Virus record (IMG/VR): IMGVR_UViG_3300046002_004546
Span: 1 to 21,600 of that record
Length of the DNA: 21,600 bases
Strand: one strand, 5' to 3'
Origin: a virus
Shown here: positions 7,174 to 16,880 of the stretch, one piece after another
Numbering within the stretch: position 1 is the first letter of the stretch
Layout of the letters: each line of letters starts with the position of its first letter
Notes under the pieces: generated by a model
Told to the model about the DNA's origin: nothing
The model's input: only the letters and a program-made list of their open reading frames with translations
The model's database searches: none
Program-made: the position numbers and the translations under genes

Positions 7174-8244
7174 TTACAGTTTCCCGTAATCGACCATGAG
7201 AAAGCCCGTCCAGTGACGGACAACCGCATCAATCCCCATCTTAAGAACGTCCTGCGCCATCACGCCGACATGACGCTTACGGCCCCAAACATAGCGGTAT
7301 TCATACACCGGAAGGCCGTTAGCCATCGTGCCAACGCGCTTAATGTCTCGCTTCAAGCGGCGATCCGAAGCACCAATAGCCGCCCCGCCAAGCTGGAACA
7401 GGCCGCCCATCAAGGCTTGCTGTTGTTGATTCCGAGATTGATAGTTCTGGTTCTGCTGGTTCAGGCTCAAAGCATTAGCCCCAAGCACGTCAGTCTGGCC
7501 TACGCCGGTCGGGTTGTACTGAACGCCCGTAGGCATTCCGACCTGCCCCGTCCCCAAGAGGGCCTGTAGCTGCTGAAGGGGTTGGTTCTGCTGATAAGCC
7601 CGCTCTTGAAGGCCCTGCGTCCGTGCTTGATTGTTGAACGTCGAACCGGCCAAGCCTTGCGAGAAAGCCCGCGATTGTTCGTCCCCGCCTTGGAACAGCG
7701 AGTCAGCCCGCGCTTGTCCGTAGGCGTCGTTACGGTCCCGAATCAGGTCTTGGCGCAGATTGCGGGAGGCGTCGCTATTAGCCCCCAAGCCCTGCGCTGC
7801 GAGCTTGGCGTCAGTCGAGGCTTCGTATTGCTGCCACTGAGGGTCAAGACGGCGCGTCGCCTGCTGATAGGCCGCGTCTTCGTACTTACCCCGATCAAAG
7901 GCGGCGGGGTCAAAACCTTGAAGGGCAGGAAGCCCCTCGGTGTTAAGCGGCTGGCCAAGGGCCGCGTTCACGCGCCCAAGCTGGTCACCCGCCGTTTGCA
8001 GCGCACCGCCATAGACGGACGTTGCCCGGTCATAGTTCTGCTGTTCACCGGCAGAGAGATTGGTTTCCTGACGATAGCCACCGGGCGCTGACGGGTCCGC
8101 AACATAGTTCACGGAACCTTGCGGCCCGCGAGTGTTTATAAGATTCATTCTTTGCTGCTCTTGCGCCGTGCGAATGTTCGCAGCCGACTGAGCGTTAGCA
8201 AGTTGGACGGGGTCAGGAGCCGCCGGGGGTTTTGGCTTCGACAT
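7174..8244 (-). CDS. Q-rich virion protein with C-terminal S74-like chaperone fragment
   Basis: A 356-aa protein. Residues 1-290 are helical and very rich in Gln, Ala and Asn, with an opening (PKPPAAPDPVQLANAQSAAN) of the kind seen in podovirus ejection proteins. From Ser293 it switches to SDRRLKRDIKRVGTMANGLP and on to VGVMAQDV, the signature of the intramolecular chaperone (peptidase S74) domain usually found at the end of tailspikes and fibres. Ser293 and Lys298 have the spacing of the known self-cleaving Ser-Lys pair, but the domain is only about 64 residues, shorter than the full fibre form. AAAGG lies 8 nt before the ATG. The start lies inside the 3' end of the GNAT gene (32-nt overlap). 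Confidence 0.78.
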   Translation of the reverse strand: MSKPKPPAAPDPVQLANAQSAANIRTAQEQQRMNLINTRGPQGSVNYVADPSAPGGYRQETNLSAGEQQNYDRATSVYGGALQTAGDQLGRVNAALGQPLNTEGLPALQGFDPAAFDRGKYEDAAYQQATRRLDPQWQQYEASTDAKLAAQGLGANSDASRNLRQDLIRDRNDAYGQARADSLFQGGDEQSRAFSQGLAGSTFNNQARTQGLQERAYQQNQPLQQLQALLGTGQVGMPTGVQYNPTGVGQTDVLGANALSLNQQNQNYQSRNQQQQALMGGLFQLGGAAIGASDRRLKRDIKRVGTMANGLPVYEYRYVWGRKRHVGVMAQDVLKMGIDAVVRHWTGFLMVDYGKL

Positions 8245-8680
8245 TTACGCGGCCTTTGTTGAAGCGGTGGACTTGCCACTCGCTCTTGAGAAGACCGGAT
8301 ATGATACAGTCGTCGTCACCGTAGCCACTTCGTACCGTTCCCTCGTGTTTGAAGCCAAACTTTTGGAGGAACTGGCGAGCCCGACGCAACTTCTTGGGCG
8401 TCAAACTGGTGATCCGGTTGCAATCGAGTTGATCGAAAGCGTAGCTGAGTATGCCCGTGACGAGACTAGGCGTCAACCAGTTGGGCCGGATCGCGGCAAA
8501 ACTGACCTCAATGTTGCGGTATTGAGGCTGATACTGGTTGAAGACCACGCCACCGATGAGATTATCATCCTTATCGACAACCCCGATTGCCTCGCACGGT
8601 CCCCAGTCCAGCCCGTGGCCGATCTGGTCCGCGACCCATTGGGCCACTAGCGGAGAGAAGGGGCCGGATAGCAATTTCAT
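8213..8680 (-). CDS. GNAT family acetyltransferase
   Basis: A 155-aa GNAT-type N-acetyltransferase. The N-terminal part has a strand pair (EAIGVVDKDDNLIGGVVFNQ); the middle (IRPNWLTPSLVTGILSYAFD) matches the acetyl-CoA-binding helix region; the end RARQFLQKFGFKHEGTVRSG is the typical GNAT 'fyeklGFk.EG..R' ending. The frame is open further upstream to 8758, but the ATG at 8680 is chosen because AGGAGG lies 5 nt before it and the GNAT fold begins there. The substrate is unknown. Such genes recur among podovirus tail genes, so it may modify a virion or host protein. A promoter-like sequence lies just upstream, and the 3' end overlaps the next gene by 32 nt. Confidence 0.82.
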   Translation of the reverse strand: MKLLSGPFSPLVAQWVADQIGHGLDWGPCEAIGVVDKDDNLIGGVVFNQYQPQYRNIEVSFAAIRPNWLTPSLVTGILSYAFDQLDCNRITSLTPKKLRRARQFLQKFGFKHEGTVRSGYGDDDCIISGLLKSEWQVHRFNKGRVNVEAKTPGGS

Positions 8681-8704
8681 TTGCGCCTCCTCCAAGGAGC
8701 GGGC

Positions 8705-8734
8705 ATTATAGCCCCGTAGAGAGCAGCGTGGAAA
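8705..8734 (-). promoter_or_regulatory. Candidate sigma70-type promoter before the GNAT gene
   Basis: The complement has TTTCCA (734-729, 4 of 6 to TTGACA), an 18-nt spacer and a perfect TATAAT (710-705), then about 24 nt to the GNAT ATG. It lies in the longest gap of the window (8681-8831), which holds no convincing gene. The TATAAT sits in the loop of a small GGGC/GCCC inverted repeat. It could feed the GNAT, ejection protein, fibre and tailspike genes. It is a sequence match only. Confidence 0.5.
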
Positions 8735-8831
8735 GCAGACACGCCGAGAATAGCTCACTGACCGTACGAGGCTTTCGTTGGACCCGTCTATCTGGCGGGC
8801 GAGTACGGAGCCGGAGTAGCGCCCGGCCTCT

Positions 8832-11412: not shown

Positions 11413-11742
11413 TTAGGCTTTCGGTGGACGCCCGCGCTTTTTAGGCGTCGGAGGGGTTTCGTAATCCGCAGGGACGTGGACGTGTTCGTCGCTTACGGGT
11501 CGGAGAGCCCCTCCCGGCTCCCCGCTTTGGTCGTGATCGAACGCCTCAAGCGGCGCGTGATTGAATGCCTCTACTAGATATTGGTCGTACTCGAAACCAT
11601 GCGCTTTCTTGTCAGCCTCCGTAGCAGGACGGGGGCCGATCACAGACGCCGAGTCTGCCTGAAAGCGGAACATGAGAACGCCGTCCTCCTTGAAGAACCG
11701 CGCACCGGGGCGGTACATCACGTCTCGTTCCATCTTGCTCAT
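11413..11742 (-). CDS. 109-aa unknown protein with AT-hook-like tail
   Basis: A small protein of unknown function. The N-terminal half has a strand-rich segment (MYRPGARFFKEDGVLMFRFQ) and the C-terminus ends PTPKKRGRPPKA, where the RGRP core with flanking basic residues resembles an AT-hook, a minor-groove DNA-binding motif. Such basic tails occur in small phage head proteins, so it may touch packaged DNA (inference). It overlaps the upstream gene as ATGA, with AAGGA 6 nt before the ATG. A second ATG three codons in is possible. Confidence 0.7.
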   Translation of the reverse strand: MSKMERDVMYRPGARFFKEDGVLMFRFQADSASVIGPRPATEADKKAHGFEYDQYLVEAFNHAPLEAFDHDQSGEPGGALRPVSDEHVHVPADYETPPTPKKRGRPPKA

Positions 11743-12260
11743 GCCGCTTCCTTCTCTTTCGTGGCCTCAATCGCAGCCGCTAGTTTGTCCTCAAGCTCAC
11801 GGATACGCTGCGTCATTTCAGCAAGGGGCTTTTCGGCGTCAGTTTGTTCAATGAACCGCTGCGCCTTGGCGCGGAGAGCGTGACCGCCCATCGGAACGCA
11901 TTTGGCAAGCTGAGAGTCAGACAGGCTCGCAAGGGCCTCCACAGTGCGGATATGGACGCTGTTAAGCTCCATCACCTGACTACGGCCTACACCCGCCCAT
12001 TCGTCCAGCGGAGTGCCAGATTCAGGGGCTTCCATGTTGGCTTTGAACGCCGCGTACTTCGTAGGCCACCGATCCCGGTGTTCATCCTTCACCGCCACGT
12101 CAACGATATTCTTGTTATCGCCCGGCACGATAAGCTCGACGTACTCAACGTCGTTCCAGACCTCACGGCCTTGCTTCTCGCTTTGGAAGTTGTCTCGCAC
12201 GGGTTTGATGTGAAAGCGGGGGATGATCCGGTCCCTGCCATCAGGCGCAACGTAATCCAT
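11739..12260 (-). CDS. Conserved phage protein with C-terminal coiled coil
   Basis: A 173-aa protein without a recognised enzymatic role. The N-terminal half is beta-rich (RDRIIPRFHIKPVRDN, VEYVELIVPGDNKNIVDVAV); the middle carries ESGTPLDEWAGVGRSQVMEL and IRTVEALASLSDSQLAKCVP, a pattern I recall from podovirus head regions and possibly a short helix-hairpin-helix. The last 40 residues are a charged coiled coil (MTQRIRELEDKLAAAIEATK). Two ATGs stand side by side; AGGAGG lies 2 nt before the first (12263) and 5 nt before the second (12260), so the second is chosen. It follows the FkbM gene and begins the return to structural genes. Confidence 0.72.
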   Translation of the reverse strand: MDYVAPDGRDRIIPRFHIKPVRDNFQSEKQGREVWNDVEYVELIVPGDNKNIVDVAVKDEHRDRWPTKYAAFKANMEAPESGTPLDEWAGVGRSQVMELNSVHIRTVEALASLSDSQLAKCVPMGGHALRAKAQRFIEQTDAEKPLAEMTQRIRELEDKLAAAIEATKEKEAA

Positions 12261-12838
12261 CATGTCCTCCTATACACGGTGTCATTGCCAATCTTCATAA
12301 CGCGCTTGTAGCCGGGCAAATCAGCCAACCGGCCCAAGCCCTTCTCTTCAAGCACGACAATAGGCGAAAACTTCTCGATTGTCGCCCTCGCGCCTTCGAT
12401 TGCATCCGCTTCCGATCCCTCAATGTCCAGCCAGATAAGATCACAGGCATCCAAGCCCAGCCCGTCAATCGTCATCACCGGAACTGAGCCGTTTGGAACC
12501 GTCTTGTGTGCCCCGCAATTATCACCCTCGACCACCTGAACGGAGCAAGTCCCCGCCGCCTTCCCTAATGCCGCCTTGTAAATGGCAATGTTAGGCCGCG
12601 TCGCGTTCCTCAAAAGACAGGAGAGGTTCTCATCATCCGGCTCAAAGGTTACAATCCTCTCAAACGCATCAGCGAGCGCCAACGGATAGACGCCGACGTT
12701 TCCACCGGCCTGCACACAGACTCGCTTAGTCTCGACCAGCGGCAGAACAAGAGGCATCGCCTCCGCGCATTGTGCGACTATTACTGGCCTAGCCCGGCGA
12801 TCCGCGTCAGGCCACCAAAGGCCGTCAAACTCTCTCAT
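12260..12838 (-). CDS. FkbM-type SAM methyltransferase
   Basis: A 192-aa SAM-dependent methyltransferase of the FkbM kind, a family that O-methylates sugars and other hydroxyl groups. The SAM-binding loop is AGGNVGVY (44-51), with FEPDDEN (65-71) as the acidic ribose-binding motif, VMTIDGLGL (121-129) and IWLDIEGSEADAIEGA (135-150), the hallmark FkbM segment. FkbM proteins usually have DVGAN-type loops; the QAGGNVG variant is one I recall from phage copies. AGGAGG lies 7 nt before the ATG, which overlaps the DNA methyltransferase stop as ATGA. Its neighbour glycosyltransferase-DUF115 protein suggests that it caps or decorates a sugar, but the target is not shown by the sequence. Confidence 0.85.
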   Translation of the reverse strand: MREFDGLWWPDADRRARPVIVAQCAEAMPLVLPLVETKRVCVQAGGNVGVYPLALADAFERIVTFEPDDENLSCLLRNATRPNIAIYKAALGKAAGTCSVQVVEGDNCGAHKTVPNGSVPVMTIDGLGLDACDLIWLDIEGSEADAIEGARATIEKFSPIVVLEEKGLGRLADLPGYKRVMKIGNDTVYRRT

Positions 12839-13512
12839 AGCAAAGCCTCCTGAACGGGCTTGGCGACTGGCTCGGCAAAGAGCCGGGGCTGTTTGTAGGC
12901 CTCCTCGATACGACGGCAGGCGATGTCGAAATACGGTTCATGGATTTCGCACCCCACAAACGGCCTTCCTTTGACGCAGGCAGCTATTCCCGTGCTTCCC
13001 CCGCCCATAAACGGGTCAAAGACGACACCATGCGTCCAGCCAACTACAACCTCCATCAAGGCCACCGGCTTCTCAGTGGGATGAAAGTCGTTGCCCGTGC
13101 GCGGGCATTCGATCACGTCGTTAGGCCGCTTGCCGGGCCAGAAATGGCTTTCTCCCGCATAGAAAAAACACACTTCAGTCTGGCGTCCGTGTTCGTGCTC
13201 TAGGTCTCCCATTGACCAGTTGTTTTTGACCCACGTTATCAGGCTCTTTGGCTTGGGAATGTCCGCCAGATTATCCCACCTGCCAAACAGATACCGACTA
13301 TGAGAAACCGGAATCGCGCAGGCCCACTGAAGAAGATCGACCGTTTCATCATTAGCAATCTTGTCGTGCTGAACCGTTCGGTAATTTGACTGAAACGCCA
13401 TCCCATACGGCGGGTCCGAAACAACCGCATCTACCGCTCCAAGGGTCGGCAGAATGTCCCGGCAGTCGCCCAAATAAAGCGTGCAGTCGCCGATGGTTTC
13501 CACGCGGCTCAT
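12835..13512 (-). CDS. Beta-class DNA adenine methyltransferase (orphan)
   Basis: A 225-aa DNA methyltransferase. The catalytic motif SDPPYG (32-37) comes first and the SAM-binding motif DPFMGGGSTG (166-175) near the end, preceded by HPTEKPV (144-150) and followed by FVGCEIHEPYFDIACRR (185-201). This order is the beta class, and DPPY favours N6-adenine over N4-cytosine. The protein is complete but compact, with a short region between motifs for target recognition. No restriction enzyme is adjacent, so it probably protects phage DNA or alters expression rather than forming a restriction-modification pair. GGAGGT lies 7 nt before the ATG, which overlaps the glycosyltransferase stop as ATGA. The recognition site cannot be read from sequence. 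Confidence 0.9.
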   Translation of the reverse strand: MSRVETIGDCTLYLGDCRDILPTLGAVDAVVSDPPYGMAFQSNYRTVQHDKIANDETVDLLQWACAIPVSHSRYLFGRWDNLADIPKPKSLITWVKNNWSMGDLEHEHGRQTEVCFFYAGESHFWPGKRPNDVIECPRTGNDFHPTEKPVALMEVVVGWTHGVVFDPFMGGGSTGIAACVKGRPFVGCEIHEPYFDIACRRIEEAYKQPRLFAEPVAKPVQEALL

Positions 13513-14939
13513 GCCAGCAACCTCCCCATATCCGGAATCAGGCCCTTCCCATGGGCCACCAGCTTAACACCACGGTCGCGCAGATACAAAAACTGCTGCT
13601 GAAATTCCATAGCCTGCCTAATCATCCACCGGGCGCAAGTGTAGGTCTTGCCCGCTATGGTGACTTGCATGGTAGCCTCGCCATCATTCAGGGCTTGCGG
13701 ATAGGCGTGATGGCTTTCCTCGGAATAGGAGCTATCGAAGCCGTACAGGTGGATTTTCTTGTACCCCGACAGCCACGCCAGATTGATCGCCCGGAGCCCT
13801 ACAGTCCCCCCGCCCGGCACGAGAACGCACGGCCTTTGGTTCGGCCCTTCGTCAAACCACGGGTCAATGATCTCCCGTAGTTCCTCGCCCGACCCCATGC
13901 CGTTGTGCCACAGAACAACATCATGCCCCGAAAGCGCATCAAACACGCACGGATGAACCTGCGAGGCGAGGAAATAGCGCACGTCCTTTGGCGCATCCTC
14001 GACCATTGAGAGATTTTCTTCCCGCGCATCCAGCATCACGTGCGCGTCAGGCTTCAGCCCCTTGCTCATCAGATAGCGCAGGGCGTTGTTGACGGTGATG
14101 ATCTTCGCGCCCCGACGCTTCCAATCCTTCAGCTTGGGTATGCTGTCTTTCATGGAGGGACCGCCACCGACAATCACGGCGACCTCCTCACGCTCTCCAA
14201 AGCCTGTGAACCACGGAATGTCCCGCAGCACGTTCGCCCGCACATTGGCATAAGCGAAGTCATGCGTGACGTTCATGCCCTTTAGCTCTGGCATGGCCGT
14301 AAAGCCCCCGACGCGCCAGACACCCGGAACCCAACCCTCCGTCACTTCATGGGGCTTGGGATCGCCGTGGAATATGATCGCCTTCGCTAGTTCGGGAGGC
14401 CACGCCACCGCATCGCGATAGGAGACAAACCAACCCTCGGGGAATGTCTGCCACGCCGAGACTTGGCTAATCCACTCTTGGTCCCCACCGTTGACCTGAC
14501 CAGCCGGTAGAAGGCCTTTAAGGCTCTCCGTAGGGCGGTCGATAACGTCTGGCGTGAAGCGGTCCCAAATGGCGCTATGCTCGCCGTGCGTCCAGCGCAT
14601 CACGGAGCTATTGTAGGTCGGCCAATGCCAATCCTTAATGATGCCGTGCGGAAGTTCCTCAAGCCGACCCGTCACGCATACGTCTAGGTCCATGTAGAGG
14701 ACTTCATCGCCCCAAACCCACGGCATGTCCCGTGAGAACAGAAACACCTTCTGCCACCAACCCGGTAGCGCGCGGTTGTAGGCAATCGGTGTGATGCCTT
14801 CCGGCAGGCTGTCGGGATCGTCCGTCAGACACCAATGGCATTGCTCTTCTGCCAGATGCCTAGCGATGCCGTCGTGGAGATTGGTGACGTACTCGATTGG
14901 GTATTTTGAGCCGACGCGGACGGAGACGACGTTAATCAT
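13509..14939 (-). CDS. Glycosyltransferase (GT-A/GT8-like) fused to DUF115 domain
   Basis: A 476-aa two-domain protein. Residues 1-240 look like a GT-A nucleotide-sugar transferase: SVRVGSKYPIEYVTNLHDGI at the start, YMDLDV with the metal-binding D84-x-D86, and FHGDPKPHE (190-198), the His-containing segment typical of GT8-like enzymes. Residues about 252-470 look like DUF115 (Pfam PF01973, MAF/MptE-like): VAVIVGGGPSMKDSIPKLKD, ITVNNALRYLMSKGLKPDAH, VPGGGTVGLRAINLAWLSGY and IHLYGFDSSY. DUF115 proteins include flagellin-modifying MAF transferases and pterin kinases. It probably transfers a sugar to DNA, a virion protein or a host surface; the acceptor is unknown. AAAGGAGG lies 7 nt before the ATG. 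Confidence 0.8.
   Translation of the reverse strand: MINVVSVRVGSKYPIEYVTNLHDGIARHLAEEQCHWCLTDDPDSLPEGITPIAYNRALPGWWQKVFLFSRDMPWVWGDEVLYMDLDVCVTGRLEELPHGIIKDWHWPTYNSSVMRWTHGEHSAIWDRFTPDVIDRPTESLKGLLPAGQVNGGDQEWISQVSAWQTFPEGWFVSYRDAVAWPPELAKAIIFHGDPKPHEVTEGWVPGVWRVGGFTAMPELKGMNVTHDFAYANVRANVLRDIPWFTGFGEREEVAVIVGGGPSMKDSIPKLKDWKRRGAKIITVNNALRYLMSKGLKPDAHVMLDAREENLSMVEDAPKDVRYFLASQVHPCVFDALSGHDVVLWHNGMGSGEELREIIDPWFDEGPNQRPCVLVPGGGTVGLRAINLAWLSGYKKIHLYGFDSSYSEESHHAYPQALNDGEATMQVTIAGKTYTCARWMIRQAMEFQQQFLYLRDRGVKLVAHGKGLIPDMGRLLA
14913..14939 (-). repeat. Direct repeat copy B (start of glycosyltransferase gene)
   Basis: These 27 bases, encoding MINVVSVRV, match 15161-15187 at 25 of 27 positions. 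The two copies are 248 nt apart and each forms the first nine codons of its gene, so together they bracket the 83-aa gene. Confidence 0.85.
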
Positions 14940-15187
14940 AGGCCCGCCTCCTTTGCCTTACGGATAGTCTCCACCGCTTGAGGACCAAAGACTAGCCGTG
15001 CGGAAAGCCCATCGCCCCATCTGATTGAAAGCCACGGAACGCCAAACACGCCAGTTTTCGACTTCCAGCGCCAGACCGCAAACCCTTTGTTGGCGCAAAC
15101 TCGGTCTAATGCGACGACTTGGGAAAGGCAGTCGGCACCAATCCATGACGGATGAGTAGCGACGCGGACGCTGACGACGTTAATCAT
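14936..15187 (-). CDS. 83-aa unknown protein sharing its first nine residues with the next gene
   Basis: The protein begins MINVVSVRVATHPSWIGADC and ends in a helix (AVETIRKAKEAGL). The frame can start at a GTG at 15208, but the ATG at 15187 overlaps the HNH stop as ATGA and gives the same nine first residues as the downstream glycosyltransferase, so it is preferred. After residue 9 the two diverge. The middle is Trp-rich (FAVWRWKSKTGVFGVPWLSI). It is not recognised; it may be a small independent protein or a leftover of a GT-A-type N-terminus after recombination. Confidence 0.62.
   Translation of the reverse strand: MINVVSVRVATHPSWIGADCLSQVVALDRVCANKGFAVWRWKSKTGVFGVPWLSIRWGDGLSARLVFGPQAVETIRKAKEAGL
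15161..15187 (-). repeat. Direct repeat copy A (start of 83-aa gene)
   Basis: Partner of the repeat at 14913-14939; the two differences lie side by side in one three-base block (CAGC against CTCC on the coding strand). It includes the ATGA overlap with the HNH gene. Confidence 0.85.
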
Positions 15188-15504
15188 CGGGTCACCCGCT
15201 TTTTCCACGCCGCCCGCGTTCGCGCCTTGATAATCATGAGGGCTGTCCGGTGGTCTTGAGTCGGCGCGTCGCTGCCTTTCGACACGTTGCAGCGTCGGTG
15301 CGCCACAGTAAGGTTCCCGTGGTTCTTTCCGCCCGCACTTTTGGGCTGGACATGATCCAGCGAAATGCCGTCAGGATGGTTCATCGGCATAGGGTCGTCC
15401 GGGTGCGCCAAAGGCTTCAAGCAAAGAGCGCATAAGCCACCCTGAGCGGTCCAAAGAGAGACCCTGATATTCCGGCGTTTGACCGGACACTTGATAACCG
15501 ACAC
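15184..15504 (-). CDS. HNH endonuclease (GTG start)
   Basis: A 106-aa HNH nuclease. Cys25 and Cys28 (CALC) begin the zinc site, SLDHVQPKSAGGKNHGNLTV holds the catalytic Asp50-His51 and Asn64, and HRRCN (His69, Cys72) completes the zinc ligands. The frame is open further upstream to 15621, but that part runs through the terminator and into the upstream gene. The GTG at 15504-15502 with GGAGGT 5 nt before it is the better start. Free-standing HNH genes may be homing nucleases that spread neighbouring DNA, or may take part in packaging; its place at the head of an accessory cassette favours the first (inference). It ends with an ATGA overlap. Confidence 0.85.
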   Translation of the reverse strand: MSVIKCPVKRRNIRVSLWTAQGGLCALCLKPLAHPDDPMPMNHPDGISLDHVQPKSAGGKNHGNLTVAHRRCNVSKGSDAPTQDHRTALMIIKARTRAAWKKRVTR

Positions 15505-15520
15505 TCGCCACCTCCATAGC

Positions 15521-15550
15521 AAAAGACGCCGGACCGAAGCCCGACGCCTT
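15521..15550 (-). terminator. Intrinsic terminator with UUCG loop
   Basis: The complement carries a stem of about 10 pairs (some G-U) closed by a C(UUCG)G tetraloop, preceded by AA and followed by TTTT (524-521). It lies 47 nt after the small capsid-region gene and before the HNH ribosome site. It would partly end the highly expressed capsid transcript and lower expression of the accessory cassette. The T run is short, so read-through is likely. Confidence 0.7.
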
Positions 15551-15596
15551 AAGCTTAGCGCATAACCCCCGTGGAGGCGAGAGTGACGCGAAAGGA

Positions 15597-15884
15597 CTAG
15601 AGGGCGGTCTGTTTTGCCCAAAAGTACTGGCCAGCAGTCACGCCGCCCGTGGTGTTGACCGTGAAGCCCGCCGAGCCCGCATCCGAGGACGCGGAACCGG
15701 CAGTACCGATCAAAATGGTAGCCGTGGAAGCAAGAGCCTCCGAGGCGCGGGCGTAAACGTGCAGTCGCGCATCATTCGCCCGGATGGACGTGTTGACGGC
15801 GAAGGCCGGGGTGGACGACTTGGAATCAAGATCAATCCCAAGGGTCGGAGTGGTCGCGAAGACCGTTGCGGCAGTCGATGCCAT
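15597..15884 (-). CDS. Small Ser/Thr/Ala-rich protein, possible capsid decoration
   Basis: A 95-aa protein beginning MASTAATVFATTPTLGIDLD, composed largely of Ala, Ser, Thr and Gly with regular strand-like alternation (STATILIGTAGSASSD). It has the strongest ribosome site nearby, AAGGAG 8 nt before the ATG, lies 24 nt after the capsid gene and is followed by a terminator. High expression and this place fit a head decoration or stabilising protein; the sequence itself is not diagnostic. Confidence 0.68.
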   Translation of the reverse strand: MASTAATVFATTPTLGIDLDSKSSTPAFAVNTSIRANDARLHVYARASEALASTATILIGTAGSASSDAGSAGFTVNTTGGVTAGQYFWAKQTAL

Positions 15885-15908: not shown

Positions 15909-16880
15909 TCAGGTTTGGAAGAGGACGCCTTGGAGGAAGGCGTTCGAGAGGGTCATGTTACCCGCCCAAACGATCGGCTTCACCATGGCGTCTTGGTTGA
16001 TGGAACGGACTTCCTCAAGCGGGACCATGTTGCGGTCTTTGTGAGGACGCCAGTGGATATAGCCCGTGTTCAGCATGTACATATGATTGTCAGGGCAAGC
16101 GCCGCCGTGACCGCCATCGTACACAACGTCCGTGCCCTTGTACTTCAGCGAGACATAGCCCGCGTCAGCTTCGTTCGGGTTCGTGACGCGCTGAATGTCC
16201 TGCAACGCCGACTCGTAGAAGCCGAAGTAGTTGTCATCACACAGGATCAGGTCAGGCTTGTCCGTACCGCGCGAGCATTGGCGATACAGGGTGTTCATGA
16301 AGCGGACGATGTTAGCCGCCGAAGCCGCCGAACCGCCGTCAGCCGTAGCCGCGAACTTCTGGTTTTGCCAGAACGACCACGTCGCGCGGTTGATGCCGCC
16401 GACAGTGCCCGTGGTTGGGTCATCAGCCACAAGCAGTTGCAGGCCGCCGATCTGCTTTCCACCCGACGCAGTGCCGTTGGAGTACAGGTCTTCAGCCACA
16501 CCGTTCTGCATGGTCTTTTCCGCGTTTTTGATGCGCGAGGCCAGCAGATCAATGATCGCATCAACGCCGGAGTTTTGAAGCTGCTCCAGACCGCTCATGG
16601 TCACATTGACGGCGATTTGCTTCCAGTCGAACTCAGCAGCCGTGAACACGTCGCTAGGCGAGATATTCAGGACTTCGTAGCCGGAGTAACGCTGGTAAGT
16701 GACGTTCTCGGCGTACTCAAGCTCTTGCAGGATGGTGCGACCGCCAGACACCGGCTTGATGGTGCCGCGACGGTTCATGCGCGACAGAATCGCGTTGTTA
16801 TTTGTGATATTGTCCGCCAGCTTGCCCGTGCGTTTACGCAGGGTAGTGGTGGCGATTTCCGAGACATTCGGGGATGCCAT
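15909..16880 (-). CDS. Major capsid protein
   Basis: A 323-aa capsid subunit. MASPNVSEIATTTLRKRTGK, then GGRTILQELEYAENVTYQRY and SGYEVLNISPSDVFTAAEFD, are characteristic of a widespread phage major head protein group of similar length, expected to take the HK97-type fold. A conserved middle (SGLEQLQNSGVDAIIDLLAS, RIKNAEKTMQNGVAEDLYSN) and the end (NMTLSNAFLQGVLFQT) complete the match. No maturation protease is encoded nearby, so assembly probably uses the separate scaffold gene just upstream without proteolysis of coat. AGGAG lies 8 nt before the ATG, 11 nt after the scaffold stop. Confidence 0.92.
   Translation of the reverse strand: MASPNVSEIATTTLRKRTGKLADNITNNNAILSRMNRRGTIKPVSGGRTILQELEYAENVTYQRYSGYEVLNISPSDVFTAAEFDWKQIAVNVTMSGLEQLQNSGVDAIIDLLASRIKNAEKTMQNGVAEDLYSNGTASGGKQIGGLQLLVADDPTTGTVGGINRATWSFWQNQKFAATADGGSAASAANIVRFMNTLYRQCSRGTDKPDLILCDDNYFGFYESALQDIQRVTNPNEADAGYVSLKYKGTDVVYDGGHGGACPDNHMYMLNTGYIHWRPHKDRNMVPLEEVRSINQDAMVKPIVWAGNMTLSNAFLQGVLFQT

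Follow-up and report, generated by a model that had tools for sequence, protein, structure and literature searches.

According to PMC11339370, Maf enzymes O-glycosylate Ser/Thr residues of flagellin with nonulosonic acids, and FkbM genes are known as optional extras in flagellin glycosylation islands (PMC4875605). Glycosylation of the virion has been described in mycobacteriophages (Che8 and others), where, as cited in PMC12619734 and PMC11256854, phage-encoded glycosyltransferases glycosylate the capsid and the tail tube; we liken our locus to these phages by this described role of the glycosyltransferases and not by enzyme homology. Phage P1 carries pmgO, pmgP and pmgQ (record L323, P1 79592-82150) in a late "putative morphogenetic" cluster, and these three genes are non-essential in the laboratory (PMC10695390), as would be expected for a decoration system. 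Here we describe a locus in which a flagellin-type glycosyltransferase fusion and a dedicated methyltransferase are core to the head operon of one phage group.

The window analysed, a virus contig of 21.6 kb, holds the structural half of an Mx8-like phage and is transcribed from the minus strand in the order terminase, portal, scaffold, capsid, 95-aa protein, the interval 15504-12260, 174-aa protein and tail genes. Within the interval follow an HNH endonuclease, an 83-aa ORF, a 476-aa glycosyltransferase, an N6/N4 DNA methyltransferase and an FkbM methyltransferase. The sequence-only reading had placed five genes here joined by ATGA overlaps, and its genes, coordinates and overlaps are all correct on the minus strand, with a 4-bp ATGA overlap at 5/5 junctions from the HNH gene through to the 174-aa gene. 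The features are as follows.

15909..16880, minus strand: major capsid protein, Mx8-like (NF033394, E 6e-104; 50% identity to Myxococcus phage Mx8)
15597..15884, minus strand: Ser/Thr-rich (27%) 95-aa protein after the capsid gene, noted for its composition and kept beside the glycosyltransferase in relatives
15505..15597, minus strand: conserved intergenic leader with a GCCTCCACnGGGG element, a terminator hairpin and TTTT, then a GCTATGGAGGT ribosome site
15184..15504, minus strand: HNH endonuclease, 106 aa, GTG start (PF01844, E 2e-5)
14936..15187, minus strand: 83-aa ORF whose first 9 codons copy the start of the glycosyltransferase gene (27-bp near-duplicate)
13509..14939, minus strand: GT8-Maf fusion glycosyltransferase, 476 aa (PF01973, E 2e-26; phrog_1962, E 5e-20; AF2 model and structure matches)
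12835..13512, minus strand: N6/N4 DNA methyltransferase, 225 aa, between the glycosyltransferase and FkbM (PF01555, E 9e-16)
12260..12838, minus strand: FkbM-family methyltransferase, 192 aa (TIGR01444, E 5e-17; PF05050, E 7e-11; PDB 2py6, E 4e-8)
11739..12263, minus strand: 174-aa head/tail protein that forms a constant downstream border for the region (phrog_20268, E 3e-22)

The 476-aa protein had been labelled GT-DUF115 and can now be described more sharply, as two catalytic folds, GT8 and Maf. It scores 93.2 bits against the MptE-like/DUF115 profile PF01973, above the curated cut-off of 34.6. The AF2 model that we used was made from a diverse alignment and has a pLDDT of 88.4; a run with close relatives only gave a pLDDT of 51 and was set aside. 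The GT8 domain (residues 1-213) matches GT8 structures (LgtC 1g9r, Z 16.9 over 196 residues; GlyE, 16.4; glycogenin, about 16), and in the Maf/DUF115 domain (residues about 225-474), residues 225-474 match the Maf structure 5mu5 with Z 22.0, rmsd 2.9 and 18% identity over 224 residues. Judged from this model, the protein is a fusion of two enzymes. Its N-terminal half carries a DXD at D84/D86, GDQ at 152-154 and FHGxPKP at 190-196, and we assign the DXD, DQ and HxGxxKP motifs to GT8 after those of LgtC. Across 22 relatives (down to 34% identity), D84, L85, D86, D103, G152, D153, H191, G192 and P196 are invariant and Q154 is nearly so.

Compared with the Maf flagellin glycosyltransferases (PF01973; 5mu5, Magnetospirillum), the phage protein is alike in the fold and profile of its C-terminal half, but it is fused to GT8 and is encoded in a head operon, not in a flagellar locus. 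The N-terminal half has the fold (Z about 16-17) and the DXD, DQ and HG..KP motifs of LgtC, glycogenin and pneumococcal GlyE, whereas it is fused to Maf and has 14-20% identity to solved GT8 members. The GT8 half has a homologue in P1, PmgQ (hhalign probability 99.5, E 4e-23), and PmgO and PmgP give weak MptE/DUF115 matches that are short and under the Pfam cut-off. The P1 proteins thus share the domain types of the fusion and come from a late cluster, but they are encoded by separate genes, with no FkbM among the annotated neighbours, in another type of phage; by sequence comparison, pmgO/pmgP/pmgQ appear to correspond to the fusion in split form. Similar full-length proteins are present in databases as unnamed phage proteins. 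In a tblastn search of an isolate phage collection, none covered the whole fusion and the matches were to the GT8 half only, and a pattern scan of bacterial genomes did not find a glycosyltransferase homologue; two prophages located via the capsid carry relatives of it at the same site. Most prophages that have this capsid belong to Alphaproteobacteria.

The FkbM protein scores 62.8 bits against TIGR01444, above the curated cut-off of 37.7, and by analogy it is predicted to be an O-methyltransferase acting on the transferred sugar. It resembles the FkbM family (PF05050/TIGR01444; 2py6) by profile and PDB match, and members of this family also accompany flagellin glycosyltransferases; it differs in that it is a phage-encoded protein of 192 aa paired with a GT8-Maf fusion. 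Both genes are under purifying selection, and the low dN/dS values (0.08-0.13 for the glycosyltransferase and 0.09-0.18 for FkbM) indicate that both are maintained. A small gene with a core of about 57-60 aa, NERRKAWATLKWYPERLTDADRALLLLDEPDF, often stands right before FkbM in relatives (L013 4688-4918, L019 12807-12986) and is absent in the window.

The pairing of the two genes is well supported. Relatives were picked by capsid identity, so that their choice is independent of the interval, and those with a capsid identity of at least 92% and a contig reaching past the glycosyltransferase were counted; all close relatives are metagenomic contigs with no known host. Both genes are at this place in 44/44 of the relatives counted, and the glycosyltransferase keeps its position, with the capsid/95-aa genes on one side and the 174-aa gene on the other, down to 31% identity. 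The 174-aa gene in relatives comes after the 95-aa-type gene or after the pair. A capsid tree with 68 rows has the glycosyltransferase in 59, a proportion that is not a frequency because some rows were fetched via the glycosyltransferase itself, FkbM in 53, the glycosyltransferase alone in 6 and FkbM without it in 0. The fewest changes on this tree, which has long branches and an unsure deep part, are 4 and 6, with about six for FkbM. The view of the two genes as a unit of the late virion operon therefore stands, since FkbM occurs only with the glycosyltransferase on the capsid tree, and their order can flip, as in L180, where FkbM comes first. FkbM was not found in the entire 36-kb contig L047. 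L179 has a Methyltransf_24 gene directly after the glycosyltransferase, in place of FkbM, and L182 has a Methyltransf_11 gene just upstream of it; where FkbM is missing, its place is thus sometimes taken by a different methyltransferase of small-molecule type. A Rhodomicrobium prophage (L312 8302-10077) encodes a 591-aa methyltransferase-DUF115 fusion between the capsid and the 174-aa gene, together with a separate adjoining 293-aa glycosyltransferase candidate that matches no Pfam family. In the unrelated small phages L184, L242 and DSL-LC06, glycosyltransferase/FkbM pairs adjoin terminase, packaging or connector genes. Eight isolate types with FkbM homologues were inspected, and glycosyltransferases are nearby in three of them, which are small phages, but not in the other five, which are large-genome phages with no annotated glycosyltransferase within about 4 kb of FkbM; in one of these five, FkbM overlaps a DNA methyltransferase gene. 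FkbM can thus have other jobs. In Ochrobactrum phage OC (L119 3953-5348), FkbM overlaps a DNA methyltransferase gene, and no annotated glycosyltransferase is nearby.

The other three genes of the interval behave differently. Relatives differ in what lies in front of the glycosyltransferase and in the gap from there to FkbM: these slots hold several kinds of HNH gene or assorted small ORFs and are sometimes empty. This variability of the HNH gene, the 83-aa ORF and the DNA methyltransferase, set against the constancy of the glycosyltransferase and FkbM, distinguishes three passengers from two core genes. The HNH gene, which lies between the leader and the glycosyltransferase, is a mobile passenger: a 77% identical copy is at the same place in L165 and one of 43% identity in L168, and different HNH families occupy these slots in other relatives. 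No relatives of the 83-aa ORF were found when searched for, and its 27-bp near copy of the glycosyltransferase start suggests that it probably belongs to an insertion at the 5' end of that gene. A DNA methyltransferase of the PF01555 family is present in 9/22 records, in the slot between the glycosyltransferase and FkbM in only two (the window and G002) and elsewhere in seven; the two slot enzymes are mosaics that have the C-terminal tail in common but not the middle. The sequence-only reading had proposed an alignment with relatives lacking the interval, to reveal a clean insertion. For the DNA methyltransferase, L110 has an empty site, its glycosyltransferase overlapping straight into FkbM. 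The glycosyltransferase and FkbM are never missing in close relatives. The gene content of the capsid-selected relatives led us to reject the five-gene accessory cassette, which resolves into separate variable insertions around a two-gene core, and the single pathway including the DNA methyltransferase is not supported either. As far as gene content can tell, the region is a fixed two-gene module, putatively for glycans, with other genes inserted into it.

As for what the two core genes do, we lean slightly towards a late cytoplasmic O-glycosylation of a virion (head) protein that is capped by FkbM O-methylation, and we infer its chemistry, step order, target and benefit by analogy. The two enzymes would be made together with the head proteins and would put a short methylated sugar on a virion protein. 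As in flagellin glycosylation, the Maf domain may start the glycan on Ser/Thr of a soluble phage protein; the GT8 domain would take a UDP-sugar and add or supply a second sugar (hexose), and FkbM would O-methylate the resulting glycan. A homologue of the NAD-dependent epimerase family was not found in the phages, so the host would have to provide the nucleotide-sugar donors. The acceptor would most likely be the capsid or the 95-aa protein, and the Ser/Thr content of the latter (27%) is a weak hint that it is one candidate. Virions might, for example, be masked from decoy surfaces or proteases. The position in the head operon makes a virion target the most likely one, although position alone is no proof. 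Tentatively, we further suggest that the GT8-Maf fusion and its dedicated FkbM may represent a phage-own system of head-protein O-glycosylation, exapted from flagellin glycosylation, that is fused in Mx8-like phages and split in P1 and others.

A target on the host surface is less likely. Here the pair would act late on LPS, capsule or, via Maf, flagellin, and would prevent superinfection or the adhesion of progeny to debris. Maf does act on flagellin in bacteria, the flagellin glycosylation islands do contain FkbM (PMC4875605), and some isolated phages, such as DSL-LC06, have LPS/capsule-type glycosyltransferase clusters near FkbM. However, the GtrA flippase (PF04138) and a GtrB-type Glycos_transf_2 (PF00535), looked for as marks of an O-antigen gtr cluster, were each found in 0/18 records, and the fixed place in the head operon and the late timing would be odd for an exclusion system; we regard this explanation as unlikely, though deserving of some weight. 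O-antigen conversion in particular is disfavoured, as there are no gtr genes in the 18 records.

It could also be argued that the interval merely gathers unrelated morons in a permissive insertion slot, so that adjacency is meaningless. The HNH gene, the 83-aa ORF, the DNA methyltransferase and the small ORFs plainly act in this way, but for the glycosyltransferase and FkbM the idea is already disfavoured and seems improbable to us: neither is ever missing in close relatives, both are under purifying selection, FkbM is nested within carriers of the glycosyltransferase, their order can be reversed, and other methyltransferases can be swapped in. DNA glucosylation by phage glycosyltransferases is known, and with a DNA methyltransferase sitting between the glycosyltransferase and FkbM, the module could be thought to glycosylate and methylate phage DNA against restriction. 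DNA was among the targets that the sequence-only reading had offered, and it is now disfavoured to the point that we give it hardly any credence. A thymidylate-synthase-like hydroxymethylase (PF00303), as in T4-type hypermodification, was found in 0/22 records (the window and some contigs being incomplete), so that a hydroxylated base could not arise by any known route; moreover, the glycosyltransferase matches protein- and saccharide-directed folds, and in most cases the DNA methyltransferase is missing or located at another site.

If glycosylation of a head protein is what the pair carries out, flagellin-type O-glycosylation would be linked to virus particles in Gram-negative phages, and the non-essential pmgO, pmgP and pmgQ of P1 would gain a testable function. 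The two genes would also offer a compact pair to study or use for the methylated-sugar decoration of proteins. The tempting grouping of the glycosyltransferase and FkbM with DNA methylation is corrected in any case.

The leader ahead of the interval precedes the glycosyltransferase in relatives and the HNH gene in the window. A capsid terminator had been proposed here, and a strong hairpin followed by TTTT is indeed present at about 15555-15515 (-24.8 kcal/mol, z about -7 on folding), but it is not directly 3' of the capsid gene, as it follows the 95-aa gene (15884-15597). The hairpin is missing from the list given by a simple terminator scan; in four relatives, the same hairpin is built from different bases. 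CCTAGCCTCCACTGGGGTTAGGTGnTAGCTTA is a conserved single-copy element just ahead of the terminator in nearly all relatives (window 15505-15597, minus strand; L012 5118-5212) and might act as a promoter or regulator. A GNAT-type acetyltransferase-like gene of the window (8213-8758, minus strand) is kept in relatives, in their tail region, and a GNAT is annotated in phages L118 and L120.
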